DNA from: Anas platyrhynchos
Taxonomy: Eukaryota > Chordata > Aves > Anseriformes > Anatidae
NCBI RefSeq assembly: GCF_047663525.1
Contig: NC_092603.1
Coordinates: 1,942,001-2,006,000 of the forward strand
DNA: 64,000 nt
Direction of reading: 5' to 3'
A program made the translations under genes and the position numbers. Of this stretch, positions 1 to 64,000 are shown piece after piece; positions within the stretch are counted from its first letter, which is position 1; every line of letters starts with the position of its first letter. The notes under the pieces are model-generated. The model was not told the DNA's origin. It searched no databases and was given only the letters and a program-made list of their open reading frames with translations.

Positions 1-161
1 GTTAGGGGTGAGAGTGGCTCCTTGAAGCGTCCAGTCCCTGAGCCCCTGGGGACATGGCTTGTCTGTGCTGTGTCTGGCATGGGAGCAGATGGGGTCTTTG
101 CCTTGGAACTGAATTCCTCCCCAAGTCAAGCCCCAAACACGCGCTCTTACCCCAGCCACAG

Positions 162-2551
162 GCACTGACCCCCACCTCTCCCTGGGGGGCTACGAGGCCG
201 GAGGCGTCCGGGTGCTGTGTCGATCGGCCGGCTGGTACCCGCTGCCGCAGCTGCTGTGGAGGGATGCTCGCGGGCAGCACCTGCCCTCGGTCTCCCAGAC
301 ACATTCCCAGGACCAGGAGGGGCTCTTTGAAATCGAAGGCACCGTCATCGTGACCGGGAGCGTGGAGGGGCCCTTGTCCTGCGTGGTCAGGAACAGCTGC
401 CTCGAGGAGGAAAAGGAATCATCCCTGCACATTGCAGGTACAAATGGCACAGCCAGGGTGAGGTGTTCCTGGCCCCTGCACTTGTCCTGAGCTGCGAGAA
501 GTCTGGGTCTTGCTCTTCCATCCATGGACATGTAAACACAGCCCTTTTCCTGGTGCCTTTTCTCAGTTCCCTTCTTCCACAACACCCAGCCCTGGATGGT
601 GGCTCTGGCTCTGGTCCTCGTGCTTTTGGCTGTGTCCATTGGCCTCAGTGTTTATCTCTTCCGAAAGCAAGGTAAGCTGGCAGCGCAGGGATGGAGCGCA
701 GGGAGGTGTTCTGCGGGGACCCTTCTTGGGTCTGGAGCAGGGCTGAGCCCTGGCCCAGGGAGATGCGTAGAAGGAGGAAGGGAATGTTCTCCTGGGGATG
801 CCAAAGGCCTTAGGATGGTCTTGGGCCTTTGTCTTGGGCAAGGAAGGCAGGGGAGAAGGCAAGGGGCCTTGGGTGGGAGGCCAGGGAGCATGGCTGCAGC
901 ATGGGGCTGGTGGCAAGGTGCAGCCCCCCTGCACTTGTTCCCACCCAACAACCAAGCTGCTCTGCTCACCACCTGTTCCTCCGCCTTTGCTTTTCAGCGG
1001 CACAGAGCCGAGAGCTGGGAGAGTCCTTGCAGTCCCTGCCCCCAGCCCCTGGGAAGTGGTGTTGTCCCTGTGGGAGGGCCTGGTCTGGGTGGGCTCTGAG
1101 GGCTTGTGTGCTGGTGGCTCGGGGGTGCTGGAGGAGCAGCTGGAGCCTGGGGTGGGAGTGGGGAGTGCTGGGGCTGGGGCTGCCCTGGGCATGGGGCACG
1201 GCCAGGATGGCTGAAAGGAACGGGGATCAAGGTGGGGACGGGGAGCGAGCTGCGGGGCTGCCCCGCTCTGCAATGACGCTTCTGGGACAGGAACGGAATA
1301 TCCTCCAACAATCTTTTTTTCATTTCGGTAATGTCTACGGTACCACTGGGATATAATCTGCACAAGTGTCTGTGTTTCCAGATGCACTAAGAGCATTGTT
1401 CATAGCTGGACCACTATGTTTTTGGTCCCACCTTGGAACAAGGCTGTATTATCCCAGTCATGGGATGTGTTCAGGGTCTAACATAGGCTGAACAACTCTC
1501 CCTCTGATCATGCATTACTTTCACTTTCCTTTTCAGAGAAACAAGCTGCAGAGCTGGGTGAGTGTCCTGGTGCTTCGACACATGGCTATGCCAAGGCAAT
1601 GTGAGGGAGGGTGGGCAGCTGGGACAGAGCAGCCCAGGGCTGGCCCCTCACCCTGCCCACACTCACTGGGCACCAGCCATGGGCTGTGATCAGCTCTCCC
1701 CTCTCCTTCCAGCATGGAGACGGTGTCTACTGCCTCATAATAGAGGTAGGTGTGCATTGGGTAGCCCTCTGAAGTGCTTCTCCTGCCCCTGGTGGGGCAT
1801 GTTCAGGAGCCAAGAGGTGCCCCATCTCCTGCCCCGTGGGACAGCTCCTGGCCCCGAGCTGGGGAAAGCCTGCCCAGGGCTGAGCTCTGCCCCTGATGGC
1901 CTGGCTCCTTCTGTCCCTGCAGTGAAGGTGACCCTGGATCCACACACGGCTCATCCCTGGCTTGTGGTGTCTCAGGACAACAGCAGTGTGAGATGCGGAA
2001 GTGAACGGCAGCAGGTCCCTGACACACCAGAGAGATTTGACTGTCAGTGCTGCCTGCTGGGCTGTGAGGAGTTCAGAGAGGGGAGACACTGCTGGTTGGT
2101 GGAGGTGGAGGGAGAGCGGCTAAAGTATTCACGGTGGGCTGTGGGGGTGGCCAGGGCTTCTGTGGAGAGAAAGAAGTGGATCAACATAATCCCTGAAGAA
2201 GGGATCTGGGCTCTGCAGTACTATGAGGGGCAGCTCAAGTCTCTCACATGGCCTCCCACTCCCGTGTCCCTGTCCCATGTTCCCACAAGGATTTGGGTCT
2301 GTCTGGACTGTACCCAGGGACAGGTGTCTTTTATCAATGCTGACAATGGGGTCCAGATCTTCACTTTCAGAGCAGCCTCCTTCAATGGGGAGACCATCCA
2401 CCCCTGGTTCCTGTTGTGGACACGGGGAATTCAGCTGTGCCTGAGAGACAGCACACTACCGACCCCATCCCGAGGCCTTGGGACCTCCTGCCCTTCTCCA
2501 GACACTCCTGCATCACCTCTCCTTGATCCTGCAGGAGCAGCAAAGGAATGA
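162..2551 (+). CDS. BTN-1: butyrophilin-like gene, 3' part (IgC to B30.2)
   Basis: Left-truncated by the window edge. Exons seen: IgC 162-437, transmembrane 567-671, heptad exons 998-1018 and 1537-1557, a 33-nt exon 1713-1745 and B30.2/SPRY 1923-2551; all are phase 1 and open. The IgC exon has the paired cysteines (RVLC and PLSC) and the CRSAGWYP motif typical of butyrophilins. The membrane exon reads PWMVALALVLVLLAVSIGL followed by a basic stop-transfer stretch. The B30.2 exon shows VTLDP, the HCWLVEVEG block, [13 protein letters not shown] and RIWVCLDC. The first heptad exon ends in GA instead of GT, so it is probably skipped, which keeps frame. A polyadenylation signal lies at 2961-2966. 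Family role (known): BTN/BG proteins are membrane proteins that regulate T cells; the ligand of this one cannot be inferred. Confidence 0.85.
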
Positions 2552-3039
2552 GGGGCAGGGGTTCCCTGCATTCCTCCCTGCTGCTGGTGGAGGGCTGGGA
2601 TGCTGCAAGCAGGAACCAGGCCCCTTGCAGCCCCTGGGCTCTGCCCTACCCAGGACTCCTGGACTGGGGCACAAGCCCTGCTGGCACCCACGGGTCTCAC
2701 CCTGCCTCTGAGCCCCAGCAGGCAGCACAGGGGCTGCAGCAGCTCTCCACGCTCCTCTCCCCTCTGCTTGCACTGCTTGCAGACCCCAGGGCAAGGGATG
2801 TGGTCACCGTGTGCTGCCGGCCATTGCAGGCCACCTTTGCCTCCTAGGTTGGGGTTGATCCATGCTCTGTGCCTGGTGCTGAGCATGAGCAGCCTGTGGG
2901 GGCTCTTTGTTCCCTCCTCTGGAGCACATCTATGCAAGATGCAGCAGCAGGACTGTGTCAAATAAAGTTTTGTACAGGAAGATGGAGTCTGGCAGTGGCA
3001 TTTCCTGGGTGCTTTGTGTCCTGAGGCCTTGCTGCCTGG

Positions 3040-3300
3040 GAAGGCGTCTTGCAGCAGACCGTCTCCTCACACGCCTTGCCCTGCAGAGCCTTCGCCGTCC
3101 TCGTAGCCCTCCCTTGGAGGCTCTCGCACAGTTTCACGCCCTTCGTCTGCTGCGGTGCCCACAGCTGCACGCAGTGCTCGAGGCGAGGCCGCAGCAGGCC
3201 GAGCAGAGCGGGATGATCCCTTCCCTCGGCCGGCCAACAGTGCCGTGCCTGAGGCACCCCAGGGCACGCTTTGCCCTTTGGGGTCCCATGCCATGGCCCC
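3040..3300 (-). mobile_element. Old CR1 fragment (ORF2 C-terminal region)
   Basis: Read on the minus strand this translates to LEHCVQLWAPQQTKGVKLCE followed by SLQGRATRTAKALQGK, matching the C-terminal part of the CR1 reverse-transcriptase ORF (LEYCVQFWAPQ...[13 protein letters not shown]...GLEGK in typical CR1). It sits between the convergent 3' ends of BTN-1 and DMB-1 and recurs at the same place behind BTN-3, BTN-4, BTN-6 and, shortened, BTN-7. It therefore predates the array duplication and is more diverged than the other CR1 pieces. Confidence 0.75.
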
Positions 3301-3384
3301 CCCACACCCGCTAATCTTGGTGAGACACTGTAGGAGTGCGTGACCCTCTGCCCTGTGCCCAGAACTCTTCACAGACACCAGTGG

Positions 3385-4173
3385 GGCTTGTGGAGCATCT
3401 TTATTGTCAGCACCATGACATTGGGTCTGAGATGGGGCCAACCGGGAGCCACCGGTGCCAGGAGGTGTCCGTCTGGGGGTCCTCAGATGCTGCCTGGGGA
3501 AGGGGGGGACACACAGGGTGAGAGATGGGGAAATTTGCCCCTCACTGATGTGGACGGGGATGGGGACACCGTTACCTGCGGGGTAGTTGTCTCCAGGGAG
3601 GGGGGTGTAACCTGCGGGGGAGAGAAGAGGAGTGAGCAGAGTCCTCGACGCCCTTGACCACGGCCCCGGTTCTCCCCGGACACTCACCCGGGGCGGGAGG
3701 ACTGGCCCTGAAGCGGTAGATGCCGGCGAGAAATAAGCCAAGTCCCAGCACCATCAGCACGGTGGCCACCGCCACCAGTATCATCACCTCCGGCATCAGT
3801 CCGGGACCTGTGGGGACACGGCCGGGTGAGTGGCAGCAAGGTGCCAAGACCGCCGGCCTCCGGGTGCGGTCCTGCGCCTCTCCACTCACTCCAGTCCTCC
3901 AGGAGAGGCTCCTGCAGGCTGACGTGCTGCACCGAGCACATGTAGGTGTCGCCTGCCACCGGGGCCACCAGCAGGGACACCTTGCTCTGGTAGCTCCAGT
4001 CGCCATTGGGGATGGCGGAGATGGGGTTGTAGTCGTCGGGCTCCACGATGTCCCCGTTGTGCAGCCAGATGACGGTCACCTCGGGGGGTAGAAGCCCCAG
4101 ATGTGGCAGCTGAGGCAGACGGGCACACGGGCGTTCCCCATCTCCGCGGGGATGATGCGGACTTGGGGCTGCA
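3385..4173 (-). pseudogene. DMB: DMB-1: MHC class II DM-beta 3' fragment
   Basis: Minus-strand exons: beta-2 Ig domain 3890-4173, connecting/transmembrane 3688-3807, tail 3576-3611 and the end of the last exon 3483-3493 (stop 3483-3485); polyadenylation signal at 3400-3405. The beta-2 exon carries HIWGFYPPEVTVIWLHNGD-like sequence, PNGDW and the paired cysteines. The tail exon encodes YTPLPGDNY, the tyrosine-based endosomal sorting motif of DM-beta, which separates it from classical class II beta. The beta-2 exon is 284 nt against 285 in sister copies: one G is missing from the G-run near 4083-4088, so its start is out of frame. No leader or beta-1 exon is found upstream (4174-7400); a minisatellite and CR1 lie there instead. 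A fragment pseudogene convergent with BTN-1. Confidence 0.85.
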
Positions 4174-4199
4174 CTGGAGCAGGGATGGGGATGGGGGTC

Positions 4200-4945
4200 A
4201 GTGGTGGGCGAGCCCCTTTTCCCTGCCCTATGCAACGTCCTCACGCAATGTTGTGCAATGCTCTCGTGCAAAGCTCCACACAACTTCCCCATGCCACTTC
4301 CCCATGCAACGCCCTGTGCAAGCTCTAGGCCTTGTCCTGTGTGATATCACGTGTGATATCCCCATGCGATGCCCTGTGCAACACCCCTGTGCCACACCCT
4401 GCAAGAGGCATTGCTCTGTGCAACATCCCCTTGCAATGCCCAATGCAATGTGCTGTGCAGTGCTCCGTGCAACATCCCCCTGTGATGTTCTCACGCAGCG
4501 TGCTCTGCAACATCCCCATGCAATGCCCGGTGCAACATCTCCTTGCAACATGCTCTACAACACCTCTGGGTAACTACTGGGGCAGCAGATTGGGGGCTGC
4601 GCTGGAGCAGGGATGGGGATGGGGTCAGTGGTGGGCGAGCCCCTTTTTCCTGCTCTGTACAATGTCCCCACGGAATGTTCCGTGCAACGCTCCCATGCAA
4701 CACTCCTGTACAAAGCTCTAGGCATTATCCCACGCGATGTCAGGTGTGACATACCCATGCGATGCCCTGTGCAACGCCCTTGTGCCACACCCTGCAAGAG
4801 GCATGGCTATCTGCAACATCCCCTTGCAAAGGGCAATGTAATGCGCTGTGCAGTGCTGTGTGCAACATCCCCCTGCGACATCCTCACGCAGTGTGCTCTG
4901 CAACACCCCCATGCAATGCCTGGTGCAAGTGCAACATCTTGCCGA
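4200..4945. repeat. TGCAA-rich minisatellite, duplicated block
   Basis: Imperfect repeats of about 10-12 nt built on CCCATGCAATGCC / CCTGTGCAACA variants fill this interval. It starts just upstream (in gene sense) of the DMB beta-2 exon. The array occurs twice: the stretch beginning with the exon-3 splice junction and GGAGCAGGGATGGGGATGGG at about 4172 recurs at about 4595, a tandem duplication with a spacing of about 424 bp that is absent from the other units. Confidence 0.75.
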
Positions 4946-5285
4946 GGTGATCAGCTCCAGAGCAAACCCTTTCTGCAGCAGAGCAGGGGATCGGACAGGC
5001 AGGGCTATATTTTTCTAGCATCAAGCCCACTTGTGGGAGATGCCAGGACCCAGCAGCCCTTACCACAGAGGATGACAAGGCTTTGGCAGAGCCAGCAGGG
5101 CCCCCTCCTTGGCAGTTCAAAAGCTGCCCCTGGGGAGCAAGACAACCAGGAACGCAGCGATCCGGGAGGGCAAACAGGGCATGGCGCATCAGAAGGGAGT
5201 GGGAGGCAATTCATGCAGGCAGGGCAAGAAGGGAGGGCAGAGCGTTCCCCCCCGGACCATATGAACAACTCCTCTAAAGGCGGTC
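4946..5285. other. Conserved unit spacer, unassigned
   Basis: About 340 bp conserved in every unit (also about 20786-21090, 30131-30461, 48116-48458 and 61111-61448), from the end of the minisatellite to the recognisable CR1. It has no convincing coding potential. It may be the 5' untranslated part of the CR1 element, because it is always directly followed by CR1 ORF1 sequence, but I cannot confirm that by eye. Confidence 0.4.
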
Positions 5286-6152
5286 TACCACTAGCTAGGC
5301 TGCAATGGTCTCCACCAGGCACAGTGCTCTCTCTAGCAAGTCTATACACACCCAGACTGACTGCCCGCTCAAAAATGCACCAGTTCAGGTCTCTGGGTGC
5401 AGGGAGCGTCTGAGCCTCTTGCTGCCATCTGCGGGAGGCAGAGAGACTGTGTGTGTGTGAGGTGTGAGCAGGTGGATGACCTGGTCCACCTGGTGGCAGA
5501 ACTCAAGGAGGAGGTGGAGAGGTTGAGGGCTATCAGGGAGTGTGAGCGGGAGATAGAGTGGTGGGGCAACTCCCTGCGGGGCCTGAAGGAGAAGTACCGG
5601 GGTGAGACACCCCAAATGGGGGTGGACCCCCTCCCCTGTCACTCTTGGGCAGAGGGAGGGGACCTAGGAGTTGAGGAAGAATGGAGACAGGTCCCTGCTC
5701 GACATCACAGGCGATGCCCTCCCCAAAAGGCCCCACCTTCCCAGGTGCCCTTCCACAACAGGTTTGGAGCTCTGGAGCTTGAGGGACCGGTAGCTGAGGA
5801 AGAGGTAGAAAGTGTAGCCAGGAGGATGCCTAGGGTGAGGAAGTCAACTCCATGCCTCAGGACTGCCTCCACCAGGACAGAAAGAAGGGAGATTGTTGTA
5901 GGCGACTCCCTTCTCAGGGGAACAAAGGGCCCTAATTGTCAGCCTGACCCTAGCTGTAGGGAAATCTGCTTCCTCCCAGGTGCCAGGGTCAAGGAAATTG
6001 CCAGAAAACTTCCCAACCTGGTTTGCCCCTCTGACCTACTATCCCCTTTGATAGTCCAGGCTGGCAGTGATGTCATTGAAGAGAGAAGCCTGAAGGCTAT
6101 CAAACGGGACGTTAGGGGACTGGGGCGGTTAGTGGATGGAGCGGGAGTACAG
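5286..6152 (+). mobile_element. CR1 LINE, 5' end and ORF1 (chimera 1, part A)
   Basis: The plus strand encodes a CR1 ORF1-like protein from about 5397: a coiled-coil start (VDDLVHLVAELKEEVERLRA) and then the ORF1 hydrolase-like motif VVGDSLLRGTKGPN with PGARVKEIARKLP and GSDVIEERSLKAIKRD. Homology to CR1 ends near 6152 (GAGVQV), where an LTR-derived segment begins. Most of the endonuclease and reverse-transcriptase region is absent. The same breakpoint occurs in all five chimeras of the window. Confidence 0.85.
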
Positions 6153-6466
6153 GTGGAGCAGATCTCCACACTGCAGCCCATGGAGGAGCCCCCAGTGCAG
6201 GAGGTGGATGGGGCCTGGAGGAGGCTGTGGCCCATGGAGAGCCCCCACAAGAGCAGGCCCCAGGCCAGAGCCACAGCCCATGGAGAGGAGCCCACGCAGG
6301 ATCAGGAGGTCTGGGGGGAGCTGCCACCCATGGGTTACCCAGATTGGAACAGTTTGCTCCTGACAGATGTACCTCATACTACAGACCCATACTGGGGCAG
6401 TTGTTGGAGAGCTGCTGCCTATGGGAAGCCCATGTAGGATCAGTTTGGGAATGATGGCATCCCATG
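6153..6466 (+). mobile_element. LTR-derived segment inside the CR1 (chimera 1, part B)
   Basis: This interval (GCAGCCCATGGAGGAG-type imperfect repeats, then GAGCTGCTGCCTATGGGAAG) matches the internal repeat region of the solo LTR at 35044-36103, read in that LTR's own sense. It joins CR1 ORF1 to the CR1 ORF2 end. A fossil LTR fragment, duplicated with the array. Confidence 0.7.
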
Positions 6467-6932
6467 GGAGGAGTTGTTGACTCGGCTGAGGGTGGAAAGC
6501 CCTTGCAGGGAGATCTGGACAGATTGGAGGGCTGGACAATCACCAACCACATGAAGTTTAACAAAGGCAAGTGCCGGGTCCTGCACCTGGGACACAGTAA
6601 CCCTGGCTATACGTGCAGACTGGGGGATGAGACACTGGAGAGCAGCCCTGCAGAGAGGGATCTGGGAGTTGTGGTTGACAGCAAGCTGCACATGAGCCAG
6701 CAGTGTGCCCTAGCAGCCAGGAGGGCCAACCGTATCCTGGGGTGCATCGAGCACAGCATCACTAGTTGGTCAAGGGAGGTGATTGTCCCACTCTGCTCTG
6801 AGCTCTTCGGCCTGACCTCGAGGACTCTGTGCAGTTCTGGCCACCACAGCACAAGAAGGACGTGAAACTATTGGAGAGTGTCCAGAGAAGGGCCACAGAG
6901 ATGGTAAAGGGCCTTGAGGGGAAGATGTATGC
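6467..6932 (+). mobile_element. CR1 LINE, ORF2 C-terminal part (chimera 1, part C)
   Basis: Encodes the CR1 reverse-transcriptase C-terminal region: [51 protein letters not shown] and [17 protein letters not shown], then [20 protein letters not shown] in another frame. Homology stops near 6932, where an inverted CR1 piece begins. There is no CR1 3' tail. Confidence 0.85.
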
Positions 6933-7966: not shown

Positions 7967-8816
7967 ATGGTGCTACCCTGGGGCTGCAGCCACCCCAGCT
8001 TCACCGGCCATGCCAGGGGCCTCCTGACTTCCCTTGTCACTCTGCTCCTCCTCCGCCTGGGCTCAGGTAGGATCCTGAGAGGCTGCTGGGGGCTCTCCCC
8101 CCTGTGCATGCAGACTTGCTGCTGTGGGGCAGGGGAGAGGCTGTGGGACAGGGGGGACCCGAGCCCACAGCTCGCCCACGCTGGGTTTCACTTTCACTTT
8201 GGTTCACGCAATATGGCTGCTGCCTTGCCTGCCCTTTCTGTGTCTCCTTCACCCGCCCAAATGCTGCAGAGAGGGCTCCCACTCCCAGCACACCTCCTTC
8301 TCCTGCACGTCCTCCCTCTCCCTCTCCTGTTTCCCTGGTGGTTTCCCACAATACACAGGGGACGCAGCACGCACCAACTCATACACAGCTCGCTTTTTGT
8401 CACTCACTGACCCTAAATTTATGATAGCAAAATCTCACCACCTCTTTGTGCCCTTCTCCATTGCCCAGCCCAGCTCAGAGTGGAGGGACCAGGACACCCT
8501 CTCACTGCCACCGTGGGGCAGGATGTCGTGCTGTCCTGCCACTTGTCCCCTCAACGCGATGCTCGCACCTTGGAGGTCAGGTGGATCCAGGACCATATCT
8601 CTGAGACAGTGCACCACTACCACAATGGAGAGGACCTGTACAGGGAGCAGATGGAGGCATATGCCGGGAGGACAGAGTTGGTCAGAGACGGTCTCTCTGC
8701 TGGAAGCCTGGACTTGCGAATCACAGGACTGAGACCCTCTGATGATGGCCAGTACTTCTGCACTTTGGGAGATGCTGATGCTTATGCTGAAGCTATTGTG
8801 GATCTGGAGGTGTCAG
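7967..8816 (+). pseudogene. BTN-2: butyrophilin-like fragment (leader + IgV)
   Basis: Leader exon 7967-8066 (ATG; hydrophobic core TSLVTLLLLRLGSG; GT donor) and IgV exon 8469-8816, both intact and phase 1. IgV features: VVLSCHLSP (first Cys), VRWI, DGLSAGSLDLRITGL and DDGQYFC (second Cys). The intron continues to about 9416, where the sequence leaves the BTN unit just before the expected IgC exon and rejoins the 5' flank of the next copy (about 9541). IgC, membrane, heptad and B30.2 exons are therefore missing. It could at most encode a secreted IgV-only product; more likely it is a deletion remnant. Confidence 0.85.
8186..8200 (-). promoter_or_regulatory. ISRE/IRF-like element in intron 1
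   Basis: The minus strand reads AAAGTGAAAGTGAAA, two GAAA-type half-sites in IRF spacing, about 120 bp after the leader exon of BTN-2. The element is present at the corresponding place in every BTN copy. Function is inferred from the motif only. Confidence 0.4.
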
Positions 8817-9415
8817 GTTAGTGGCTGGGGTGATGCTGCCAGGGCAGAGTTTACGTGTCCTTTGAATGTTTCAGCTGTTTCACAGCATGGAGCATGCCCA
8901 TGGATGTGGAGGTAATATCTGGGGAGAGAGCTGCCTGTATAGTTTTGTCAGTTTTCACTGGTGTCATTGAAGACAATAATTATAATATTGTGAGGGCACT
9001 GGGCACAGGCTGCTGAGCAGCACCTTCAGCTGTGTCAGCAATGGGACTAAACAGCACACAGGGAGAATTGCAGAATCCTCTGAGCAGCTGGACGTCTGCT
9101 TTACTTTTGCTTTCTGTGCTGGGGGAGACCTGAGACATTGCCTGGAAGTCTTGGGGCTTCTTGAACCAGCACAGCTTGGTGCAGAGATGCTGCCTGGAGG
9201 TGCTGAAGCTCAGCACTTGGTTTTTCTGGGCAATTTCAAGCCACTGGAATTGTGCAGCCTTGCTCTCTGGGTCCGGTACATAGGAGGGTGTTTTTGGGTG
9301 AGGGTGGGTCCATGTAGCACCCAGTCCCAGAGACCCTTGGACCATGACTGGTCTGGGCTGTGTCTGACATGGGAGCAGATGGGGTCTTTGCCTTGGAACT
9401 GAATCCCTCCCCAAG

Positions 9416-10979: not shown

Positions 10980-13900
10980 ATGGGGCTCCCCTGGGGCTGC
11001 GGCACCCCCAGTCTCACCAGGCATGCCAGGAGCCTCCTGACTTCCCTCATCACTCTGCTCCTCCTACAGCTGGGCTCAGGTAGGATCCTGCAGGGCTGCT
11101 GGGGGCTCACCCCTTTGTCTTATAGACGTGCTGCTGTGGGGCAGGGGAGCGGCTGTGGGGCAGGGGGGACCCGAGCCCACAGCTCGCCCGTGCTGGGTTT
11201 CTCTTTCACTTTGGTTCGTTCACACAATATGGCTGCTGCCTTGCCTGCCCTTTCTGTGTCTCCTTCACCCGCCCGAATGCTGCAGAGAGGGCTCCCACTC
11301 CCAGCACACCTCCTTCTCCTATACATCCTCCCTCTCCCTCTCCTGTTTCCCCGCTGGTTTCCCATGGGACACGGGGGATGCATCATGCACCAACTCACGC
11401 ACAGCTTGACCTTTGACACTCACTTCCCCTAAATTTACAATGGCAAAATCTTACCTCCTCTCTGTGCCCTTCTCCATTGCCCTGTGTGAGAAACATCTCA
11501 AATAATTTTCTTCAGACAGAATCTTCTCTGAAGCTATTTTATTCACAATTGCAATGGTCCCATCAATCAGGAGCACATTTTGGTAAACAAATCCTAACCT
11601 TTTATTCCCTATTACCCGACGCCTGATCACCTCCCCTGTTTCCTCTTTGGCTGAGTACTACAGGTTCACAAGCTACTCGACGATCCTCTATACCATATAG
11701 GTACGATTTTTCTTTTCTTTTCTTTTTTTTTTTTACAACCCTTTAATTTCTCCTTTCTTACGTTTTGAGAACTTTTGATCTTTATTCTCCTGTTCTTGCA
11801 ATGCTCATCCTGTTTTCCTCAAGCTTCCACCTTATTTTGGAACAGTGACGCCTTCTACGGTCCACTTATCTACTTAGCATTTCTCCTTATTATGACTACA
11901 CAATTACCTTGGAATACAGAAAAATAATTCTCTGCTGCAAAAATAGAACTTTGTTTCTCACAGTTCCCGCCTCTTCTTTTCTTACTCCTATTGTTGTTTT
12001 TGCACTTCTTCACATACCACACTCAACTTTTTCCAACATTAAGGTGCAATAGTCTTCTTCAGATGTCACGGGGGATGATACATATACAATGTCATTATTT
12101 TACAATAACAACAAATAGTTGTTTGAGCCAATTCCATGCAGCCAATCATGAAATTAGTTTCTCCCAAATGTTTCTAAATCCCCAGGAAATGTCATTTTGA
12201 GTTACTCTATGTAGGATCTTGTGTTTTTTTGTTTGTTTGTTTGTTTGCTTGTTTTGGTTTGTTTTGGTTTTGGTTTTCCCAAATAATTTTTTCGATCAGT
12301 GAAATTCATCCCATTTGATCTACATATATACATAAACTAGTATTAATTACAGGGCATGTTCCTCCTTATGAGGATATTAATAAATCTAATACTATTTGAT
12401 TCTAGAGTACTATTTTTGCAAACTTTATCTTATTTTCTAGATCTTCAATATTTTTACAATATTTTTGTGTTTTGAGATGTTTACAATAGCTTTTTCTAAT
12501 TCACTCACCCTTAACCAAGGCAAAAAAACACCTTGCAAAACTGTAAAATGCTAGGGAGTTTTACTAAAGGATTATCTGGAGTCCACTTAATTCTGCATGT
12601 GGTCTCAAGGGGGCTTTGGCTTTGTGGGTCTTCAATAATAGTTACATTTGGAATTATTGCCTCCAGGGTGCAAGCTCCCTTCCATCCTAGGGGCAACACC
12701 TTCCTAGCTTTATTGCCATACAGCCAGTACCACCCTTTGCCATTCAGGACAGGCCATCTGCTTACAGGATTCTCATGTTGCATCTGGTGTACATTATGCA
12801 TATTAGCATTCCCGTTGTTACTATATTTGGTACAGTACGGATGATTCCCTACTTCATGGATATTTCCACACACAGGGTCAGTACTATTGCCCCCTGAGTT
12901 TCTACCAATATTGTTTAAAAGGCACCTTTGGTAACACAGCATATTGTAGCCAGGGTTACATGTAGGGAACTCAACTTCAAAATCTATTCCTTCCCAGGAC
13001 TGTGTATGATCTGTCCCTTTTAGAAATCTAGAGATTCCAGACACAGTTGCTGCTGGAAATAGTAATCAGGGACAAGGCCTTTCCAGTCTTTCTAGGCATC
13101 TGGGTGCAAATCCAACAATTATTTTGAGATGGAACTCAAGAGATGTTCTGGATTAATTGGGAATGCTGATTTTTCCCTCCATACTATCACTAATCCATTG
13201 AGAATAGCTATTACTAAGATAAACTCAAAATACATCATTACTATGTATATATACACACCCCTAAAATAATAAAGAAATAATAAGTAAGAAAAACAATAGA
13301 AATCACATACTAATAAGGATTCTTCTGGTGGGGATTAAATACCCTTCTTTCTCCTACTTCCAGGGAGTGTTCCCTGGAAACACTCCAATTCTGTGTAATT
13401 CAATCCCTTTTACTCATTAATTCATTACGAATTCTTCTAAGGAGAAGTTAAAGATTTACAATAAACAGTTTCAACAGTTTTAACCTGGAAAGTCTTTGTT
13501 AATGCAGTCTCTCTGGTATCAGAGTTAACTGATGCTTTTACCCAGATATGAGTCCACCCTTTCTCAGGTGTTCTTACTGTCATTTCAATAGTCAGGAGCA
13601 CTTGGAACAGTCCATCCCACTCAGGTTGCAGTTTCAGTTCTCTCCATATTCACATCAGAACCCAAGCTCCTTCTCAAAATGGTTGGATCGGAGCTTCCAA
13701 GGGTAGGGCTTGAGCTAACAGTCCACGGCTTCCAGAAAGAAGAAGGATGCCAAGGAATGTGAAATTTCCAGTTAATTCCTACAGTCCATATTAGCCCTTG
13801 CAATATTTCTGACATAAAGTGATTTCCTTGATCAGAGTCAATATTTTCAACAATTCCATACCTGGGAGTTATTTGTTCCAGAATTACTTTAGTTACTATG

Positions 13901-51147: not shown

Positions 51148-54100
51148 ATGGGGCTCCCCTGGGGCTGTGGCCACCCCAGCCACACCAACCATGTCAGGAG
51201 CCTCCTGACTTCCCTCGTCACTCTGCTCCTCCTCCACCTAGGCTCAGGTAGGACCCTGAGAGGCTGCTGGGAGCTCTTCCCCCTGGGCCTGGCAGACAGG
51301 CTGCCGTGGGGCAGGGGAGCAGCTGTGGGGCAGGGGGGATGCAAGCCCACAACTCAGACCCTGTTGGGTTTGACTTTCCCTTTGGTTCTTTCACACAATA
51401 TGGGCGCTGCTTTGACTGTCCTTTCTGGCTCTTCTTCTCCTGCCCGAATACTGCAGAGAGGGCTCCCACTCCCAGCACACCTCCTTCTCCTGCACGTCCT
51501 CCCTCTCCGTCTCCTGTTTCCCCGGTGTTTTCCCTTGGGACATGGGGGATGCAGCACGCACCAACTCACGCATCCACTCATGACCCTTGGTCACTCACTG
51601 CCCCTAAATTTACAATGGCAAAATCTTACCTCCTCTCTGTGCCCTTCTCCATTGCCCAGTGTGAGAAACATCTCAAATAATTTTCTTCAGACTGGATCTT
51701 CTCTGAAGCTCTTTTATTCACAATTGCAACAGTCCTGTCAATCAGGAGCACATTTTAGGAAACAAATCCTAACCTTTTATTCCCCATTACCCGACGCCTG
51801 ATCACCTCCCCTGTTTCCTCATTGGATGAGTACTAAAGGTTCAAAAGCTACATGACACTCCTCTATGCCATATATGTGCAATTTTTCTTTTTTTTTTTTT
51901 AACCCTTTAATTTCTACTTTCTTATGTTTTGAGAACTTTTGATCTTTGTTCTCCTGTTCTCACACTGCTCATCCTGTTTTTCTCAAGTTTCTACCTTTTT
52001 TTGGAACAGTGTGGCCTTCTACGGTCCACTTATCTCCTTAGCATTTCTCCTTATTATGACTACACAATTACCTATAGAAAAATAATTCTCTGCTGCAAAA
52101 ATAGAACTTTGTTTCTCACAGTTCCCCCCTCTTCTTTTCTTACTCCTATTGTTGTTTTTACACTTCTTCACATACCTCACTCTTGAGTTTTTCCAAAATT
52201 AAGGTGCAATATTCTTCTTTGGATGTCACGGGGGATGATACATATACAATGCCATTATTTTACAATACCAACAAATAGTTGGTTGAGCCAATTCTATGCA
52301 GCCAATAAGAAAATTAGTTTCTCCCAAATGTTTCTAAATCCCCAGGAAGTGTCATCTTGAGTTACTCTATGTAGGATCTTGTGGTTTTTCATTTGGTTGG
52401 TTGTTTTGGTTTGATTTTGGTTTTGTTTTTCCCAAATAATTTTTTAGATCAGTGAAATTCATCCCATTTAATCTGCATATATACAGAAACTAGTATTATT
52501 TACAGGGCATGCTCCTCCTTTTGAGGTTATTAATAAATCTAATACTCTTTGATTCTAGAGTACTATTTTTGCAAACTTTATCTTATTTTCTAGATCTTCA
52601 ATATTTTTACAATATTTTTGTGTTTTGAGATATTTACGATAGCTTTTTCTAATTCACTCACCCTTAACCAAAAAACACCTTGCAAAACTGTAAAATGCTA
52701 GAGAGTTTTACTAAAGGATTATCTGGAGTCCACTTAATTCTGAGTGTGGTCTCAGGGGGGCTTTGGCTTTGTGGGTCTTCAATAATAGTTACATTTGGAA
52801 TTATTGCCTCCAGGGTGCAAGCTCCCTTCCATCCTAGGGGCAACACCTTCCTAGCTTTATTGCCATGTAGCCAATACCACCCCTTGCCATTCAGGACAAG
52901 CCATCTGCTTACAGGATTCTCATGTTGCATCTGGTGTGCATTATGCATATTAGCATTCCCGTGGTTACCATAGTTGGTACAGTACGGATGATTCCCTACT
53001 TCGTGGATATTTCCACACACAGGGTCAGTACTATTGCCCCCTGAGTTTCTATCAATATTGTTTAAAAGGCACCTTTGGTAACACAGTATATTGTAGCCAG
53101 GGTTACATGTAGGGAACTCAACTTCAAAATCTATTCCTTCCCGGGACTGTGTATGATCTGTCCTTTCTAGAAATCTAGAGATTCCAGACACAGTTGCTGC
53201 CAGAAATAGTAATCAGGGACAAGGCCTTTCCAGTCTTTCTAGGCATCTGGGTGCAAATCCAACAATTATTTCGAGATGGAACTCAAGAGATGTTCTGGAT
53301 TAATTGGGAATGCTGATTTTTCCCTCCATCCTATCACTAATCCATTGAGAATAGCTATTACTAAGATAAACTCAAAATACATCATTACTATGTATATATA
53401 CACACCCCTAAAATAATAAAGAAATAATAAGTAAGAAAAACAATAGGAATCACATACTAATAAGGATTCTTCTGGTGGGGATTAAATACCCTCCTTTCTC
53501 CTACTTCCAGGGAGTGTTCCCTGGAAACACTCCAATTCTGTGTAATTCAATCCCTCTTAATCATTAATTCTTTACGAATTCTTCTAAGGAGAAGTTAAAG
53601 ATTTACAATTAATAGTTTCAACAGCTTTAACCTGGAAAGTCTTTGTTAATGCAGTCTCTCTGGTATCAGAGTTAACTGATGCTTTTACCCAGATATGAGT
53701 CCACCCTTTCTCAGCTGTTCTTACTGTCATTTCAATAGTCAGGAGCACTTGGAACAGTCCGTCCCACTCAGGTTGCAGTTTCAATTCTCCCCATATTCGC
53801 ATCAGAACCCAAGCTCCTTCTCAAAATGGTTGGATCAGGGCTTCCAAGGGTGGGGTTTGAGCTAACAGTCCACGGCTCCTTGGAGATGAAAAGAGGATGA
53901 CAGCCCGAGTACATAGTTCTTAAGAAAAGCATCTTTTGTCTCAAATTGAGGTAATTCGTTCCCTTTGTCCATGTACAGCAATCCAAATAATATTTCATAT
54001 GGTGAAACTCCCACATCTTTTCTTGGTGCAGTTTGAATTCGGAGAAGTGCCAAAGGTAAGCACTTCTTTTGGGGAAGCTGAGTTTCCAGGACTTAGTCAA

Positions 54101-57100
54101 TTGCTTCTTTACTGTCTAATCTGTTCCACCCTTCCAGAAGAAGAAGGATGCCAAGGAATGTGAAATTTCCAGTTAATTCCTACAGTCCACGTTAGCCCTT
54201 GCAATATTTCTGACATAAAGTGATTTCCTTGATTAGAGTCAATACTTTCAAAAATTCCATACCTGGGAGTTATTTGTTCCAGAATTACTTTAGCTACTAT
54301 GTTCGCAGTAGCAGATACTGAAGGGAAAGCTTCCACCCACCCTGACAAATGATCTACCAAGACTAGTAAGCATTTAGATCTACCTACTTTAAGGAGTTCT
54401 GTGAAATCCTCCTGTACATTTTGGAAGCATTGAATTCCTGTTTCTTGCCCTCTTCGGGCTGACTCTTTTAAATTCCTATTACCCTTTTGACATACTACGC
54501 AACTCCGGCGTACTTGTTCAGCCAGAGTATATGTATTCCTACACATACTTATTTCCATAGCACAGCGTCACACGTTGCTTGAATTCCCCAATGACATTCT
54601 TGACATAAAACAGTTAATATTTGCCTCAATAGCACTTTATTCAGCATTTCGCTCCCATCAGGGAGTATCTGTTTTCCTTTGGACTTCGTGACTCCTAATT
54701 CCTTAAAAACCTCTTTCTCTTAAAACGGTTTAGTTTGGGGTAGCTCAACAATTCCCTGAATCCTCTCTGGATTTATTTTTCATTCCCCCTCAGACACTAG
54801 ATGCCCTAAATATTTGACTTCTCTTTCTACAAATTTTAATTTATTTTCCAATACTTTCAAGCCCTATTTTCCCAGAAAGTTGAATAGCTTGTTAGGGGCA
54901 TCCTTCACAACTGCTTTCTCCTGTCCTGACAATAAAAGATCACCTACATAACACCTTCTTCGGAGGTTGGAAGTACTCCAGAATTTCTTCTAGAACTTTC
55001 CCTAATTAATTAGTGACCCTGTAAACCCGTGAGGTAAGATTGTCTCTCTGTATTGCTGCTATTGCCCCATTTTAGAGTTTTTCTACTCAAAGTCAAACAT
55101 ATCTTTGTTCTCAGGGTGTGAGAGCACCACATTAATAACACCATTATTCCAGTCTAACAATTTACTATTTGAATGCCCAATTTCATGATCAAATCCTTTC
55201 CCAACAAGTTAGTCCCTGCCTCGGTTGCATACAATAGTTGCAGTGGTAGCCCCTGTGAAAAGAATTCAGCAGCAGCACCATGTTAGATAAGGGCCAGTTT
55301 CAGCCGGCTCCAAAGGGGCTTCCTCTGCCCAGAGCCAAACCATGACAATGCAGTTTAAATCTCTATGAGAGCACACGCAAGAAAAGGGAAAAAAACCCTG
55401 CTGCACAAGAGCAGCTGGGAGAGTGAGGAGTGAGAAACGTCGCTGCGGACACCAAGGTCAGTGCAGAGGAGGGGGAGTGCAGTACAGAGGTGCTCGTCTC
55501 CACTCAGCTGTGTGCTGTGAGGGACCTCTCTCTTTTGGTGGGGCTCCCTTGGAGAAGAACCCCTGGGGCACCGACCGCCAGCCCCCTGAGGGACCTCACT
55601 CTGAGTTGGGGCTCCCCTGCGGCTGTGGCTGCCCCAGCCTCACCGCCAAGCCAGGGGCCTCCTGACTTCCCTCATCACTCTGCTCCTCCTCCACCTGGGC
55701 TCAGGTAGGATCCTGAGAGGCTGCTAGGGGTTCTCCCCCCTGTACATGCAGACGTGCTGCTGCGGGACAGGGGAGTGGCTCTGTAGAAAGGGGGGAACCG
55801 AGCCACCAGCTCGGCCCATGCTGGGTTTCACTTTCACTTCTGTTCTTGCACACAACACAGGCGCTCCCTTGGCTGCCCTTTCTGGCTCTTCGTCTCCTGC
55901 CCGAATGCTGCAGAGAGGGCTCCCACTCCCAGCACACCTCCTTCTCCTGCACGTCCTCCCTCTCCCTCTCCTGTTTCCCTGGTGGTTTCCCATGGGACAC
56001 AGGGGATGCAGCATGTACCAACTCACGCACAGCTCACCCTTTATCACTCACTGACCCTAAATTTACTATCGCAAAAACTCACCTCCATTCTGTGCCCTTC
56101 TTCATCGCCCAGCCCAGCTCAATGTGGTGGGACCAGGCCAGACTCTCACTGCCACTGTGGGGCAGGATGTCGTGCTGCCCTGCCACTTGTCCCCTCAACG
56201 CGATGCTCGCACCTTGGATGTCAGGTGGATCCGGAATGATTTCTCTGAGACAGTGCACCACTACCGCAATGGAGAGGATCTGTACGGGGAGCAGATGGGA
56301 GGGTATGCCGGGAGGACAGAGTTGGTCAGAGATGGTCTCTCTGCTGGAAGCCTGCACTTGCAAATCACAGGGCTGAGACCCTCTGATGATGGCCGGTACT
56401 TCTGCACTGTGGAAGATGCTGATGCTTATGATGATGCCATTGTGGAGCTGGAGGTGTCAGGTTAGTGGCTGGGGTGATGCTGCCAGGGCAGAGTTTACGT
56501 GTCCTTTGAATGTTCCAGCTGTTTCACAGCATGGAGCATGCCCATGGATGTGGAGGTAATATTTGGGGAGAGAGCTGCCTGGATAGTTTTGTCAGTTTAC
56601 ACTGGTGTCTTTGAAGACAATAATCATAATATTGTGAGGGCACTGGGCACAGGCTCCTGAGCAGCACCTTCAGCTGTGTCAGCAATGGGACCAAAGAGCA
56701 CACAGCGAGAGTCACAGAGTCCTCTGAGCAGACGTCTGCTTTAATTTTGCTTTCTGTTCTGGGGTAGACCTGAGACGTTGTCAGGAACTTTCGGGGCTTC
56801 TTGAACCAGGATGGCTAGGTGCAGAGACGCTGTCTGGAGGTGCTGATGCTCATCACCTGGATATTGTGGGCAATTTGGGGACACAGGTTTTGTGCAGTCC
56901 TGTTCTCTGGGTCCGGCACCTATCGGGGTGGTTTTGTGGTGAGGGTGAGTGCGCGGAATGCCTAGTCCCTGAGTCCCTGTGGCCATTGCTGTACTAGGCT
57001 GTGTCTGCCATGGGAGCAGATGGGGTCTTTGCCTTGAAATGAATCCCTCCCCAAGTCATGCCCCAGACACATTCTCTTCCCCCAGCCACAGGCACTGACC

Positions 57101-59885
57101 CCCACCTCTCCCTGGAGGGCTACGAGGCCGGAGGCGTCCGGGTGCTGTGTCGATCGGCCAGCTGGTACCCGCAGCCGCAGCTGCTGTGGAGGGATGCTCA
57201 CGGGCAGCACCTGCCCTCGGACCCCCAGACACATTCCCAGGACCAGGCGGGGCTCTTTGAAATCGAAGGCGCCGTCATCGTGACCGGGAGCGTGGAGGAG
57301 CCTTTGTCCTGCATGGTCAGGAGCAGCCGCCTGCAGCAGGAACGGGAATCATCCCTGCACATCGCAGGTACAAATGGCACAGCCAGGGTGAGGTGTTCCT
57401 GGCCCCTGCACTTGTCCTGACCCAGGAGAAGTCTGGGTCTTGCTCTTTCACCCAAGGACATGGAAACACAGCCCTTTTCCTGGTGTCTTTTCTCAGCTCC
57501 CTTCTTCCACAACGCCCAGCCCTGGATGGTGGCTCTGTCTCTGGTCCTCGTGCTTTTCGCTGTGTCCATTGGCCTCGGTGTTTATCTCTTTCGAAAGCAA
57601 GGTAAGCTGGCAATGCAGGGATGGAGCAGAGGAAGGTGTTCTGCAGGGACCCGCGTGGGTCTGGAGCAAGGGGCCTTGGGTGGGAGGCCAGGGAGCATGG
57701 CTGCAGCGTGGGGATGGTAGCAAGGCGCAGCCCCTCTGCAGATATTCCCACCCAGCAACCAAGTTGCTCTGCTTACCACCTCTTCCTCCGCCTTTGCTTT
57801 TCAGCGGCACAGAGCCGAGAGCTGGGAGAGTCCTTGCAGTCCCTGCCCCCAGCCCCTGGGAAAGTGGTGTCTGTGCGGGAGGGCCTGGTGTGGGTGGGCT
57901 CTGGGGGCTTGTGTGCTGGTGGCTTGGGGGTGCTGGAGGAGCAGCTGGAGCCTGGGGTGGGAGTGGGGAGTGCTGGGGCTGGGGCTGCCCTGGGCATGGG
58001 ACACGGCCGGGATGGCTGAAAGGAACGGGGATCAAGGTGGGGACGGGGAGGGAGCTGCGGGGCTGCCCCGCTCTGCACTGACGCTTCTGGGACAGGGACG
58101 TCCTCCACCCATCCCCATTCACTTCCCCTTGTGTTTTGGTGGGACGGTGCAGAGAGCTGCACAAGTGTCTGTCCTTGCTGCTACAAATCTTGCAAAATGC
58201 TGGCCCTTGGTCTTGTTAGTCTGGTCGCTACAAGTCTGGGAGCAAGGTGGTCTGTGCACATGCTCAAGAGCAAAAATTTTGTGTTCTAGCCATCTAGCCA
58301 TGGAAGCAGTATTGTATTGAAAGTCTCTCCACTCTGACCATTCATTCCTTTTGCTTTATATAACAGCAGAAAAGGATGCAAAGCTGGGTAAGTCTCCTTC
58401 CCCAAAGAGAAGGCATTTGGTGTCTTCCCATGGGCATACTCCCATCTGACCGTACATTGCTTTTCTTTTTCTTTTCCAGTGGAACAAGCTGCAGAGATAG
58501 GTGAGTGTCCATCCATGAACTGGAGGAATTTGAAGTGTAGACAATGGATCAGAAGTTTTTCCCTCTGATCATATATTCCTTATGCTTTTATTTTCCAGAG
58601 GAAAAAGATGCAAGACTGGGTGAGTCACTCTTCCCCCCACAACTGAAGGAATTTGGGGTCTTTGGTTTGTAGCAGTCATTGCTGCGAAGCTGACTTCTCT
58701 CATCGTTTCATTGCTTTTGTCTTTCGTTTGTAGATGAACAAGCTGCAGAGCTGGGTAAGTCTCATTCTATAAAATGAAAAGAAAAAAAAAAAAGTCATCA
58801 TCGTGAGAGATATGGAAGTAGAACCTGTGCCTTCTTCTCATATTTTGCTTTACTCTTACATTTGTAGTGAAACAAGCTGCAGAGCTGGGTAAGTCTCCTG
58901 GTGTTCAGACCCCAGGGGAAACACAACCTTGATGTGCAGGGGAAGGTGTGCAGCCGGGACAGAGAAGCCCAGGGCTGGCCCCTCACCCTGCCCACACTCA
59001 CTGGGCACCAGCCATGGGCTGTGACCAGCTCTCCCCTCTCCTTCCAGCATGGAGAAAGTTTCTGCTGCCTCAAAATAGAGGTAGGTGTGCATTGGGTTGC
59101 CCTCTGCGGTGCTTCTCCTGCCCTTGCTGGGGCATCTTCAGGAGCCAAGAGGTGCCCCATCTCCTCCACGTGGGGCAGCTCCTGGCCCCGAGCTGGGGAA
59201 AGCCTGCCCAGGGCTGAGCTCTGCCCCTGATGGCCTGGCTCCTTCTGTCCCTGCAGTGAAGGTGACCCTTGATCCACGCACGGCTCATCCCCAGCTTGTT
59301 GTGTCTCAGGACAACAGCAGTGTGAGATGCGAAAGTGAATGGCAGCAGGTTCCTGACACACCAGAGAGATTTGACGATAGTTGCTGCGTGCTGGGCCGTG
59401 AGGAGTTCAGAGAGGGGAGGCACTGCTGGATGGTGGTGGTGGAGGTAGAGCGGCTAAAGTATTCACGGTGGGCTGTGGGGGTGGCCAAGGCATCTGTGGA
59501 GAGGAAGGGGTATTTCAAAAGGAGCTCTGAAGAAGGGATCTGGGCTGTGGAGTACAATGAGGGGCAGCTCAAGTCTCTCACATGTCCTCGCACCCCCTTG
59601 TCCCTGTCCCATGTCCCCACAAGGATCTGGGTCTGTCTGGACTGTACCCAGGGGCAGGTGTCTTTTATCAACGCTGACAATGGGGTCCAGATCTTCACTT
59701 TCACAGCAGCCTCCTTCAGTGGTGAGAGCCTCCGCCCTTGGTTCTGGGTGGAGACTCTGGGAATTCAGCTGTGCCTGAGGGACAGCACCCCCCAGACCCT
59801 GTCCCCAGCCCTGGGGACCTCCTGCCCTTCTCCAACCACTCCTGCATCACCTCTACTTGATCCTGCAGGAGCAGCAGAGGTATGA
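51148..59885 (+). CDS. BTN-7: butyrophilin-like gene with fossil-bearing intron 1
   Basis: Proposed exons: leader 51148-51247, IgV 56113-56460, IgC 57092-57367, transmembrane 57497-57601, heptads 57805-57825, 58367-58387, 58480-58500, 58599-58619, 58734-58754 and 58868-58888, 33-nt exon 59048-59080, B30.2 59257-59885; polyadenylation signal 60292-60297. All are open and phase 1, predicting about 538 residues, or 531 if the first heptad, whose donor is GA, is skipped. The nearer leader-like exon (55606-55704) has TTG for ATG and a 1-nt loss, so the intact leader at 51148 is assumed to splice over the ERV fossil, as in BTN-3. IgV VVLPCHLSP/DDGRYFC, IgC VLCRSASWYP, B30.2 VTLDPR, HCWMVVVEV and RIWVCLDC. 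The HCWMVVVEVE stretch differs from the LVEVEGE of the sisters. Confidence 0.75.
51369..51383 (-). promoter_or_regulatory. ISRE/IRF-like element in BTN-7 intron 1 (first)
   Basis: AAAGGGAAAGTCAAA on the minus strand, about 120 bp after the intact leader; a weaker match. Confidence 0.3.
51660..55283 (-). mobile_element. ERV fossil B (class I/gamma-like), minus strand
   Basis: Same element as fossil A: 3' LTR 51660-52120 with inverted ends TGTGAGAAAC / GTTTCTCACA, a polypurine tract next to it, envelope-like (about 52664-53191), integrase-like (about 54109-54558) and RT-like (about 54850-55100) sequence on the minus strand. The left flank GCCCAG equals that of the solo LTR at 24288, so this is one insertion copied with the array. 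Its distal end is lost and joins an LTR fragment of another family. Broken, with numerous disabling changes. Confidence 0.8.
55284..55495 (+). mobile_element. LTR fragment (family of 35044-36103)
   Basis: Counterpart of 14850-15055, with the same junction to the ERV fossil and to the BTN flank. Confidence 0.65.
55606..55704 (+). pseudogene. Dead leader exon before BTN-7 IgV
   Basis: Leader-exon homolog with TTG in place of ATG, plus the same missing base as the dead exon at 15162-15260; GT donor intact. The shared lesion shows it was dead before the segment was duplicated. Confidence 0.75.
55826..55840 (-). promoter_or_regulatory. ISRE/IRF-like element in BTN-7 intron 1 (second)
   Basis: GAAGTGAAAGTGAAA on the minus strand, about 120 bp after the dead leader exon. 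Confidence 0.35.
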
Positions 59886-60455: not shown

Positions 60456-60497
60456 GGTTGCCCGCCTCCGGGTGCGGTCCTGCGCCTCTCCACTCAC

Positions 60498-60781
60498 TCC
60501 AGTCCTCCAGGAGAGGCTCCTGCAGGCTGACGTGCTGCACCGAGCACGTGTAGGTGTCGCCTGCCACCGGGGCCACCAGCACGGACACCTGCGTCTGGTA
60601 GCTCCAGTCACCGTTGGGGATGGCGGAGATGGGGTTGTAGTCATCGGGCTCCACGATGTCCCGTTGTGCAGCCAGATGACGGTCACCTCGGGGGGGTAGA
60701 AGCCCCAGATGTGGCAGCTGAGGCACACGGGCATACGGTCATTCCCCATCTCTGCAGGGATTATGCGGACTTGGGGCTGCA
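60498..60781 (-). pseudogene. DMB: DMB-5: DM-beta beta-2 exon only
   Basis: Only the beta-2 exon survives (284 nt; GDTYTCSVQH and LLEDWS are recognisable). One C is missing in GATGTCCCGTTG compared with the sisters, breaking the frame near 60660. Membrane, tail and last exons and the polyadenylation signal were removed by a deletion joining DMB intron 3 to the BTN-7 3' region. No leader or beta-1 exon. Confidence 0.85.
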
Positions 60782-60829
60782 CTGGATCAGGGATGGGGAT
60801 GGGGTCAGTGGTGGGCAAGCCCCTTTCCC

Positions 60830-62328: not shown

Positions 62329-62644
62329 AGCAGATCTCCACACTGCAGCCCATGGAGGAGCCCCCGGTGCAGGAGGTGGAAGGGGCCTGGAGGAGGCTGC
62401 AGCCCATGGAGAACCCCCACAGAAGCAGGCCCCAGGCCAGAGCCACAGCCCATGGAGAGGAGCCCCCGCAGGATCAGGAGCTCTGGAGGAGAGTTGTCAT
62501 GCATGCACGACCCAGATTGGAACAGTTTGCTCCTGACAGATGTACTCCATACTACAGACCCATACTGGGACAGTTGCTGGAGAGCTGCTGCCTGTGGGAA
62601 GCCCATGTAGGATAATTTGGGGAAGGATGGCATCCCATGGGAGG
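62329..62644 (+). mobile_element. LTR-derived segment (chimera 5, part B)
   Basis: Counterpart of 6153-6466. Confidence 0.65.
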
Positions 62645-63103
62645 AGTTGTTGACTCGGATGAGGGTGGAAAGCCCTTGCAGGGAGATCTGGACAGATTGG
62701 AGAGCTGGACAATCACCAACTGCATGAAGTTTAACAAAGGCAAGTACCAGGTGCTGCACCTGGGACACAGCAACCCTGGCTATACGTACAGACTGGGGGA
62801 TGAGACGCTGGAGAGCAGCCCTGCAGAGAGGGATCTGGGGGTTGTGGCTGACAGCAAGATGAACATGAGGCAGCAGTGTGCCCTAGCAGCCAGGATGGCC
62901 AACCGTATCCTGGGGTGCATCGAGCACGGCATTGCTAGTCAGTCAAGGGTAGTGATTGTCCCTCTCTGCTCTGCATAGTGTAACCTCACCTTGAGGACTC
63001 TGTGCAGTTCTGGCCACCACAGCACAAGAAGGACGTGAAACTATTGGAGAGTGTCCAGAGAAGGGCCACAGAGATGGTGAAGGGCCTTGAGGGGAAGATG
63101 TAT
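62645..63103 (+). mobile_element. CR1 ORF2 C-terminal part (chimera 5, part C)
   Basis: [39 protein letters not shown] and [17 protein letters not shown]. Confidence 0.8.
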
Positions 63104-63600
63104 GCCTTCAGCCAGTTCTCTTCGTACTCTGGGATGAATCCCATCAGGCCCTATAGTCTTGTATGCATTCATCTGGAGCAGCAAATCCCACACAAATTCG
63201 GGATTTGTTGGGACTATATCGTTCCTGCAGTCACTGTCCTCCAGCTCAGGGCACCTGGAGTCCCACAGCCCAGCATCAGTGTTGAAGGCAAAGAAAGCAA
63301 TAAACATCTCTGTGAATGACCCTGTCTGACTATCCCCATCAAGTAACAGACCAATGCTTTCTTTCATCCTACTTTTGCTGTTAAGATAGTCTAAAAAAAC
63401 AAAAACAAAAACAAAAACATTTTATTGCCCCTCACATTACTGTCCAGCTTCCACTCAAATTGAGCTTTGGCCATATGAATTTTCTCCCTACAAAAGCAAA
63501 CAGTACCATTGTAGTCCTTCCATATTGACTGACCTCACCTCCAGCAAACAAGATACTTTCCTTATCCACCTAAGCTCTAGAAGAAGGTCCCTGCCCATCT
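63104..63600 (-). mobile_element. Inverted CR1 RT fragment 5
   Basis: Counterpart of 6933-7440. The homopolymer is replaced by (AAAAAC)n at about 63394-63418. Confidence 0.7.
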
Positions 63601-64000
63601 GAGCAAACCTTATGCCACGGCTGCTTTACTGGAACCGGGAGAGGCACTGGCACTTTGCCTTCAGCAACCTGGGAAAAGGGTGGCAGCTCTGGGCTCGACA
63701 CCCAGCTGTGCCCCGTTCCCTGCAGCCTCCGATCCTGATCAGCTCTTCACTGCCATCTCTCCACATTTTCCCATTGCTCACAGTTTGATTCCTTCTGGCA
63801 TGCACAGAGATGAACGAGCTTAGCCAGTGGCTTTCCCTGGAGGTCTGGAGAGGCCCCTGCTGGGAACAAGCACCTCGTGCTTGCTAAAGGCAGTGGACTG
63901 GGCACCCAGCTGCAATGGGATGGTGGTGCCAGCCCTGCAGAGTTCCCCAGACATTGCCCTAGGGGCAGAGCTGCTCCAGGAGGGTTATTGCAGCCAGGAA
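63601..64000 (+). promoter_or_regulatory. 5' flank of a further BTN copy (right edge)
   Basis: Matches the BTN 5' flank (compare 7441-7850), ending within GGTTATTGCAGCCAGGAA about 150 bp before the expected ATG. The array therefore continues beyond the window. Confidence 0.6.

Follow-up and report, generated by a model that had tools for sequence, protein, structure and literature searches.

Alternating butyrophilin-like genes and DMB halves in a tandem array of the duck genome

In the duck major histocompatibility complex (MHC), butyrophilin (BTN) genes and genes of the DM beta chain (DMB) have been duplicated together between the class I (MHCI) and class II (MHCII) genes, and the available text of the 2024 report counts 43 BTN and 15 DMB genes, 13 of the latter being fragmental DMB2 genes (PMC10845735). 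Here we describe 64,000 nucleotides from Anas platyrhynchos (NCBI RefSeq assembly GCF_047663525.1, contig NC_092603.1, positions 1,942,001 to 2,006,000 of the forward strand), called the window at its full length, which very probably form part of this expansion: a compound unit of a BTN gene and an opposite-strand DMB 3' half has been amplified, and the DMB halves mostly ride along. Both data sets come from a waterfowl, show co-duplication of BTN and DMB with fragmental DMB copies, and are linked by nearest annotated proteins from duck. The available text of PMC10845735 differs in that it does not mention a one-to-one alternation, a convergent orientation, a truncation in common or the repeat content, and its main text holds no terms starting with "convergent" or "interspers". 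The kind of feature is thus known in outline for duck, and the view that the arrangement is unreported is not supported. What is added here is the anatomy of the unit, a probable single truncation common to the halves, and exon chimeras recognised among annotated duck proteins. Literature searches, judged from titles and the starts of abstracts, brought up no other paper that we recognised as describing a BTN-DMB unit, which is not proof of absence.

The chicken BG array is the next closest system. It is likewise a same-orientation tandem array of butyrophilin-family genes with a heptad-repeat tail, shaped by unequal crossing-over or deletion, so that it expands and contracts; BG genes differ in having a single IgV and in lacking both IgC and PRY-SPRY, and DMB pieces are not mentioned in the available text of PMC4046983. 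Membership in the BG family was rejected for the window genes, as Pfam and the gene model place IgC and PRY-SPRY in them. In the sections available of two further papers, the chicken BF/BL region has one authentic butyrophilin at its edge (PMC8813856), and the DM genes lie between class I and class II in the ancestral bird MHC (PMC8893315). Human BTN2A/BTN3A share the IgV-IgC-transmembrane (TM)-PRY-SPRY build and differ in their small, fixed gene number. Set against HLA-DMB, the D2 half of the window has a beta-2 domain like that of DM beta chains, whereas all five window copies are without a detectable beta-1.

We propose the following history. One DMB truncation would have come first. Head-to-tail amplification would then have acted on a roughly 9-kb compound unit, made up of a BTN gene, the opposite-strand DMB 3' half, a CR1-like block and the promoter of the following BTN gene, with unequal crossing-over between BTN units as its probable driver, as proposed for the chicken BG genes. 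Selection would most likely act on the BTN receptors, the DMB halves being mostly carried along and decaying.

Anatomy of the compound unit

The array of alternating BTN genes and DMB halves is a real and old duplication. The window (54.9% GC, no N) is arranged head to tail in plus-plus orientation: self-BLAST gave 94 matches of at least 300 bp, the best 80 of which were inspected, and the 20 longest span 2.0-4.0 kb at 86-92% identity. A dedicated repeat search of the window listed no inverted repeats of 200 bp or more, and the few short inverted BLAST matches connect repeat-element pieces, the longest being about 332 bp at 74%. By tblastn, the window holds six plus-strand BTN bodies (C2-set_3, TM, PRY-SPRY), five minus-strand DMB beta-2 exons and six V-set exons, one of them an orphan; Pfam on one unit gives V-set, C2-set_3, PRY and SPRY on the plus strand and C1-set on the minus strand. 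These three lines of evidence bear out the earlier claim that a plus-strand BTN gene is followed five times by a minus-strand DMB 3' half. The convergent half is present after five of the six BTN genes; after the sixth (copy D, 34-38 kb) comes a minus-strand zinc-finger fragment and no DMB half. Tandem ZNF and BTN genes are also reported in the available text of PMC10845735. No MHCI or MHCII genes turned up in the parts scanned, the Pfam scan covering less than the whole window.

1..2551, plus strand: 3' part of BTN copy A with IgC, TM, heptad exon and PRY-SPRY, its visible portion open and its IgV outside the window
7967..8818, plus strand: 5' part of an orphan BTN, consisting of leader and IgV alone; homology to the unit ends near 9430
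15162..19052, plus strand: BTN copy B, leader with a 1-bp frameshift, remaining main exons open
23777..28163, plus strand: BTN copy C, solo long terminal repeat (LTR) at the IgV acceptor, SPRY frameshift
32979..38188, plus strand: BTN copy D, IgC exon with an in-frame stop, SPRY minus one codon
41466..46102, plus strand: BTN copy E, intact 15-exon gene model of 562 residues, 14 GT-AG introns, all phase 1
55606..59885, plus strand: BTN copy F, leader ATG changed to TTG and frameshifted, remaining main exons open
3574..4168, minus strand: DMB half D1, beta-2 exon (1-bp frameshift), TM exon and exon of the YTPL motif
20083..20675, minus strand: DMB half D2, beta-2, TM and YTPL exons open, donor after the YTPL exon altered
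29240..29726, minus strand: DMB half D3, beta-2 open; a deletion truncates the TM exon and fuses it to tail sequence, YTPL lost
47114..47709, minus strand: DMB half D5, beta-2 and TM open, tyrosine codon of YTPL changed to a stop
60496..60776, minus strand: DMB half D6, beta-2 exon frameshifted, TM and tail exons deleted
40063..40179, minus strand: C2H2 zinc-finger fragment in the sole DMB-free spacer, at the DMB position

Segments homologous to a reference unit (24764-33484) keep one order across the window. The order proposed at first pass for every unit, namely CR1-like relic, DMB, minisatellite, CR1-like block (described at first pass as a putative CR1/LTR chimera) and BTN flank, is complete in three of the five (D1, D3 and D5). 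It breaks down in D2, with a minisatellite of 2 units against 6-11 elsewhere, and in D6, where a deletion at 60451 removed the TM exon, the tail exons and most of the relic. The sequence upstream of the beta-2 exon is common to all five, which is the opposite of the result that would speak against a duplicated unit. Copies diverge from each other by 5.5-12.3% in six of seven segments and by 9.0-15.9% in the BTN 5' flank, and each has its own frameshifts, deletions and LTR states.

The BTN genes carry IgV, IgC (C2-set_3), TM and PRY-SPRY, with full frame and splice sites in copy E, and their best PDB match is human BTN3A3 (E 2.2e-105). Copy E is the intact one, and damage is visible in four of the other five (B, C, D and F). 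It has nine 21-bp heptad exons, counted from 11 raw matches after dropping two that start directly after a listed exon; those at 43582-45102 arose partly by tandem duplication within the gene, at a period of 414 bp, and raw heptad matches in the other copies number 1 to 6. The heptad exons of copy E recall the heptad tails of chicken BG genes, in which the exon size is 21 bp; human BTN2A/BTN3A have fewer heptad exons. A simple consensus scan for the MHC class II promoter motifs X1, X2 and Y, cruder than FIMO, found a single Y-box-like match, within the solo LTR; via FIMO, S-X-Y modules are given for 16 of 43 duck BTN genes in the available text of PMC10845735.

What we call a DMB half varies in content: the beta-2 exon is present in five of five, the TM exon in four and the YTPL exon in three (one with a stop). 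The YTPL endosomal motif is intact in D1 and D2, stopped in D5 and absent from D3 and D6. Beta-2 is frameshifted in two halves (D1 and D6), its splice acceptor and donor are intact in all five, and all three exons are open in D2 alone. The DM-type assignment comes from D2, the half compared with PDB entries: its beta-2 is closest to DM beta chains (1.8e-24), followed by class-I-related fusion entries (6.8e-21), the best non-DM class II beta chain standing at 9.8e-15.

The repeat content of the units is as follows.

4172..4990, no strand assigned: segment upstream of the D1 beta-2 exon that bears a minisatellite, for which a loose 13-mer match counts 11 units
4990..6880, plus strand: CR1-like block that separates the DMB half from the BTN flank, named from open reading frame motifs
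11482..15067, minus strand: decayed endogenous retrovirus remnant at the BTN IgV acceptor, integrase core above the Pfam cut-off, env piece weak (E 0.0085, below cut-off)
51660..55502, minus strand: second decayed retrovirus remnant at the same site, a DNA match to 11482-15067
24288..24763, no strand assigned: solo LTR with a 4-bp target-site duplication (CCAG), its empty site seen in copy D

Minisatellite units elsewhere number 8 in 29730-30160, 6 in 47713-48165, 7 in 60780-61154 and 2 in 20679-20800, and two control stretches contained none. The CR1-like block has counterparts at approximately 20.8-22.7, 30.2-31.9, 48.2-50.1 and 61.2-63.1 kb. We call block and relic CR1-like from their open reading frame motifs; Pfam on two plus-strand pieces and the minus-strand relic gave no match, and a search for the doubled octamer of the CR1 3' end came up empty. 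One LTR site is common to three units, with a solo LTR in one and larger decayed remnants in two, and another unit has the empty site. The insertion therefore probably predates some of the duplications, the alternative being conversion between units. The shared site is also a marker for duplication order. In a BTN 5' flank, a 1037-bp insertion (9711-10747) starts with TG, ends with CA and has GTGC on both sides, thus resembling another solo LTR; within it, 9855-10041 matches 40266-40452, inverted, at 90%.

Missing beta-1 in the DMB halves

No beta-1 domain was found by Pfam in any of the five halves, in minus-strand frames around all five with E up to 0.1 or 1, under settings that detect human DMB beta-1 at 2.9e-22; the D6 search stops at the window end. 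In tblastn, queries of four bird beta-1 domains and a partial one from duck gave a best E of 0.07, against 1e-60 for the beta-2 control. With a human beta-1 query, a 27-residue plus-strand match (E 0.023) was obtained inside a CR1-like block, the wrong place and shape for a beta-1 exon. A displaced or diverged beta-1 exon was accordingly rejected, as neither Pfam nor tblastn gave a match placed or shaped like one.

CR1-like segments lie upstream of DMB in all five DMB-bearing units, and the window has no further copy at full length; 35-41 kb contains only pieces of them, at 73-79%. Considering the missing beta-1 and the shared upstream context in five of five units, the simplest reading is that DMB was truncated once, before the unit was amplified. 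The first-pass proposal that a broken DMB gene was captured and copied as a passenger is upheld as far as the copying of one truncated DMB with the BTN unit is concerned; passenger status is likely but unproven.

The unit in duck annotation

The BTN and fragmental DMB sequences of the window resemble those annotated in ducks. Among the best 120 of 1519 relatives of BTN copy E found among up to 7987 candidates, 119 are from waterfowl (Anas, Aythya, Anser, Cygnus, Cairina), and the lone other match is an owl protein of 954 residues, third by score, with 56% identity over 64% of the query. Copy E is 95-96% identical to P0006 in IgV and in SPRY. D5 matches P0130 of A. platyrhynchos at 123 of 123 residues (47796-47428), translated non-exon sequence included, and at 94% over the next 84. 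DMB-like proteins number 65 (P0121-P0185). They come from Anas and Aythya, from the magpie goose Anseranas (full length) and from other birds; Anser, Cygnus and Cairina contribute none of the 65, missing annotation being weak evidence.

The non-DMB parts of these 65 annotated bird proteins were compared with the minus-strand window sequence, in classes that overlap. Antisense minisatellite or intron sequence is present in 25 of 65, some matches extending into the beta-2 exon. Eleven proteins, from A. platyrhynchos and A. zonorhyncha, carry the CR1-like block in antisense, and 11, every one of A. platyrhynchos, carry antisense BTN 3' flank or relic; the antisense BTN 5' flank is present in five, and the BTN leader or its intron in two. 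P0126 and P0127 (A. platyrhynchos) and P0134 (A. acuta) are 5'-flank matches, the matching stretch in P0134 resembling CR1 reverse transcriptase. Twelve proteins have minus-strand matches outside the five units. By these comparisons DMB pieces adjoin antisense BTN-unit sequence in duck annotation as in the window, with good evidence in A. platyrhynchos and thinner evidence in other Anas. The N and C termini of many annotated duck DMB-like proteins are probably wrong, since in these models the beta-2 exon runs into antisense sequence of BTN flank, CR1-like or minisatellite type.

Several observations weigh against an amplified unit with passive DMB halves. The nearest neighbour of a copy changes from segment to segment, so gene conversion may have shaped parts of the array. 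BTN copies A and E are only about 84-86% identical overall to the listed annotated proteins, with none identical. In annotation, the remaining 5'-flank matches, P0143 and P0146, come from roller and nightjar and may be chance, three proteins (P0162, P0172 and P0179) match the plus strand, and CR1-like matches alone need not imply the same unit. A bird survey with strict length filters, in its available text, gives at most 2 copies each of DMA and DMB per species (PMC8893315). Finally, the beta-2 exon evolves slowly, unlike the prediction for a pure passenger.

Passenger status and alternative explanations

Across the columns of D1, D2, D3 and D5, 23 of 279 are variable in beta-2 and 15 of 107 in the TM exon, compared with 102 of 527 for the combined 5' flank, first intron and 3' flank, and beta-2 divergence is 5.1% against about 10% in the sequence on either side. 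The flank rates predict 55.9 changes in beta-2, where 32 are seen. Nonsynonymous or stop changes number 19 against 38.5 expected (Poisson P about 4e-4), and synonymous changes 13 against 17.4, which is not significant, nor is the synonymous/nonsynonymous split taken alone (P = 0.16). Variable columns fall on the three codon positions 12, 7 and 13 times, with little third-position excess, and variable and invariant runs alternate. Ratios of nonsynonymous to synonymous differences, pooled over non-independent pairs, are 0.44 for beta-2 (5 copies), 0.64 for IgV (6), 0.75 for IgC (6) and 0.79 for SPRY (4 of 6, without the frameshifted C and the codon-deleted D). It is possible that beta-2 is under residual constraint or subject to gene conversion, neither of which is proved.

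We consider three alternatives. First, gene conversion by a full-length DMB at another place in the MHC, and not selection on the halves, may account for the slow beta-2 exon. The halved divergence relative to the flanks, the deficit of changes and the alternating runs fit this explanation; conversion should lower synonymous sites as well, however, and these are not clearly reduced, and thus we regard it as unlikely while giving it more weight than the other two.

Second, the halves may be retained for the sake of a beta-1-less, membrane-anchored beta-2 protein with an endosomal YTPL tail, which would interfere with DM or class II function; such a function has been proposed for the duck fragmental DMB2 genes in the available text of PMC10845735. 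The splice sites intact in all five beta-2 exons, the nonsynonymous changes at half of expectation and the low share of variable columns relative to the adjoining noncoding sequence agree with retention. Yet two of the five halves are frameshifted, the YTPL exon is lost or stopped in three, the synonymous/nonsynonymous test is not significant, and the codon positions show little third-position excess. In addition, the source of a signal peptide is not known, no search for one having been made, and expression of the DMB2 genes is low according to the same text (PMC10845735). Retention is therefore improbable in our judgement.

Third, repeat-rich MHC regions misassemble easily, but an assembly artefact is most implausible and fresh assembly duplication is in practice excluded, given copies that differ by at least 5.5% with private frameshifts, indels and LTR states, and an Anas annotation in which DMB pieces likewise adjoin BTN-unit sequence.

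Amplification of one compound unit, with DMB halves mostly carried along, thus remains our preferred explanation. For annotators, it is a warning that many duck DMB-like models attach antisense sequence of the BTN unit, or of an intron, to a beta-2 exon. There is a slim chance that class II loading is tuned by some of the halves, retained as short beta-2 proteins with a membrane anchor and an endosomal tail; if so, BTN dose and DM dose would shift together with copy number. For the duck MHC as a whole, the array suggests that the many fragmental DMB genes arose from one truncated gene carried by BTN amplification, not from many independent losses.

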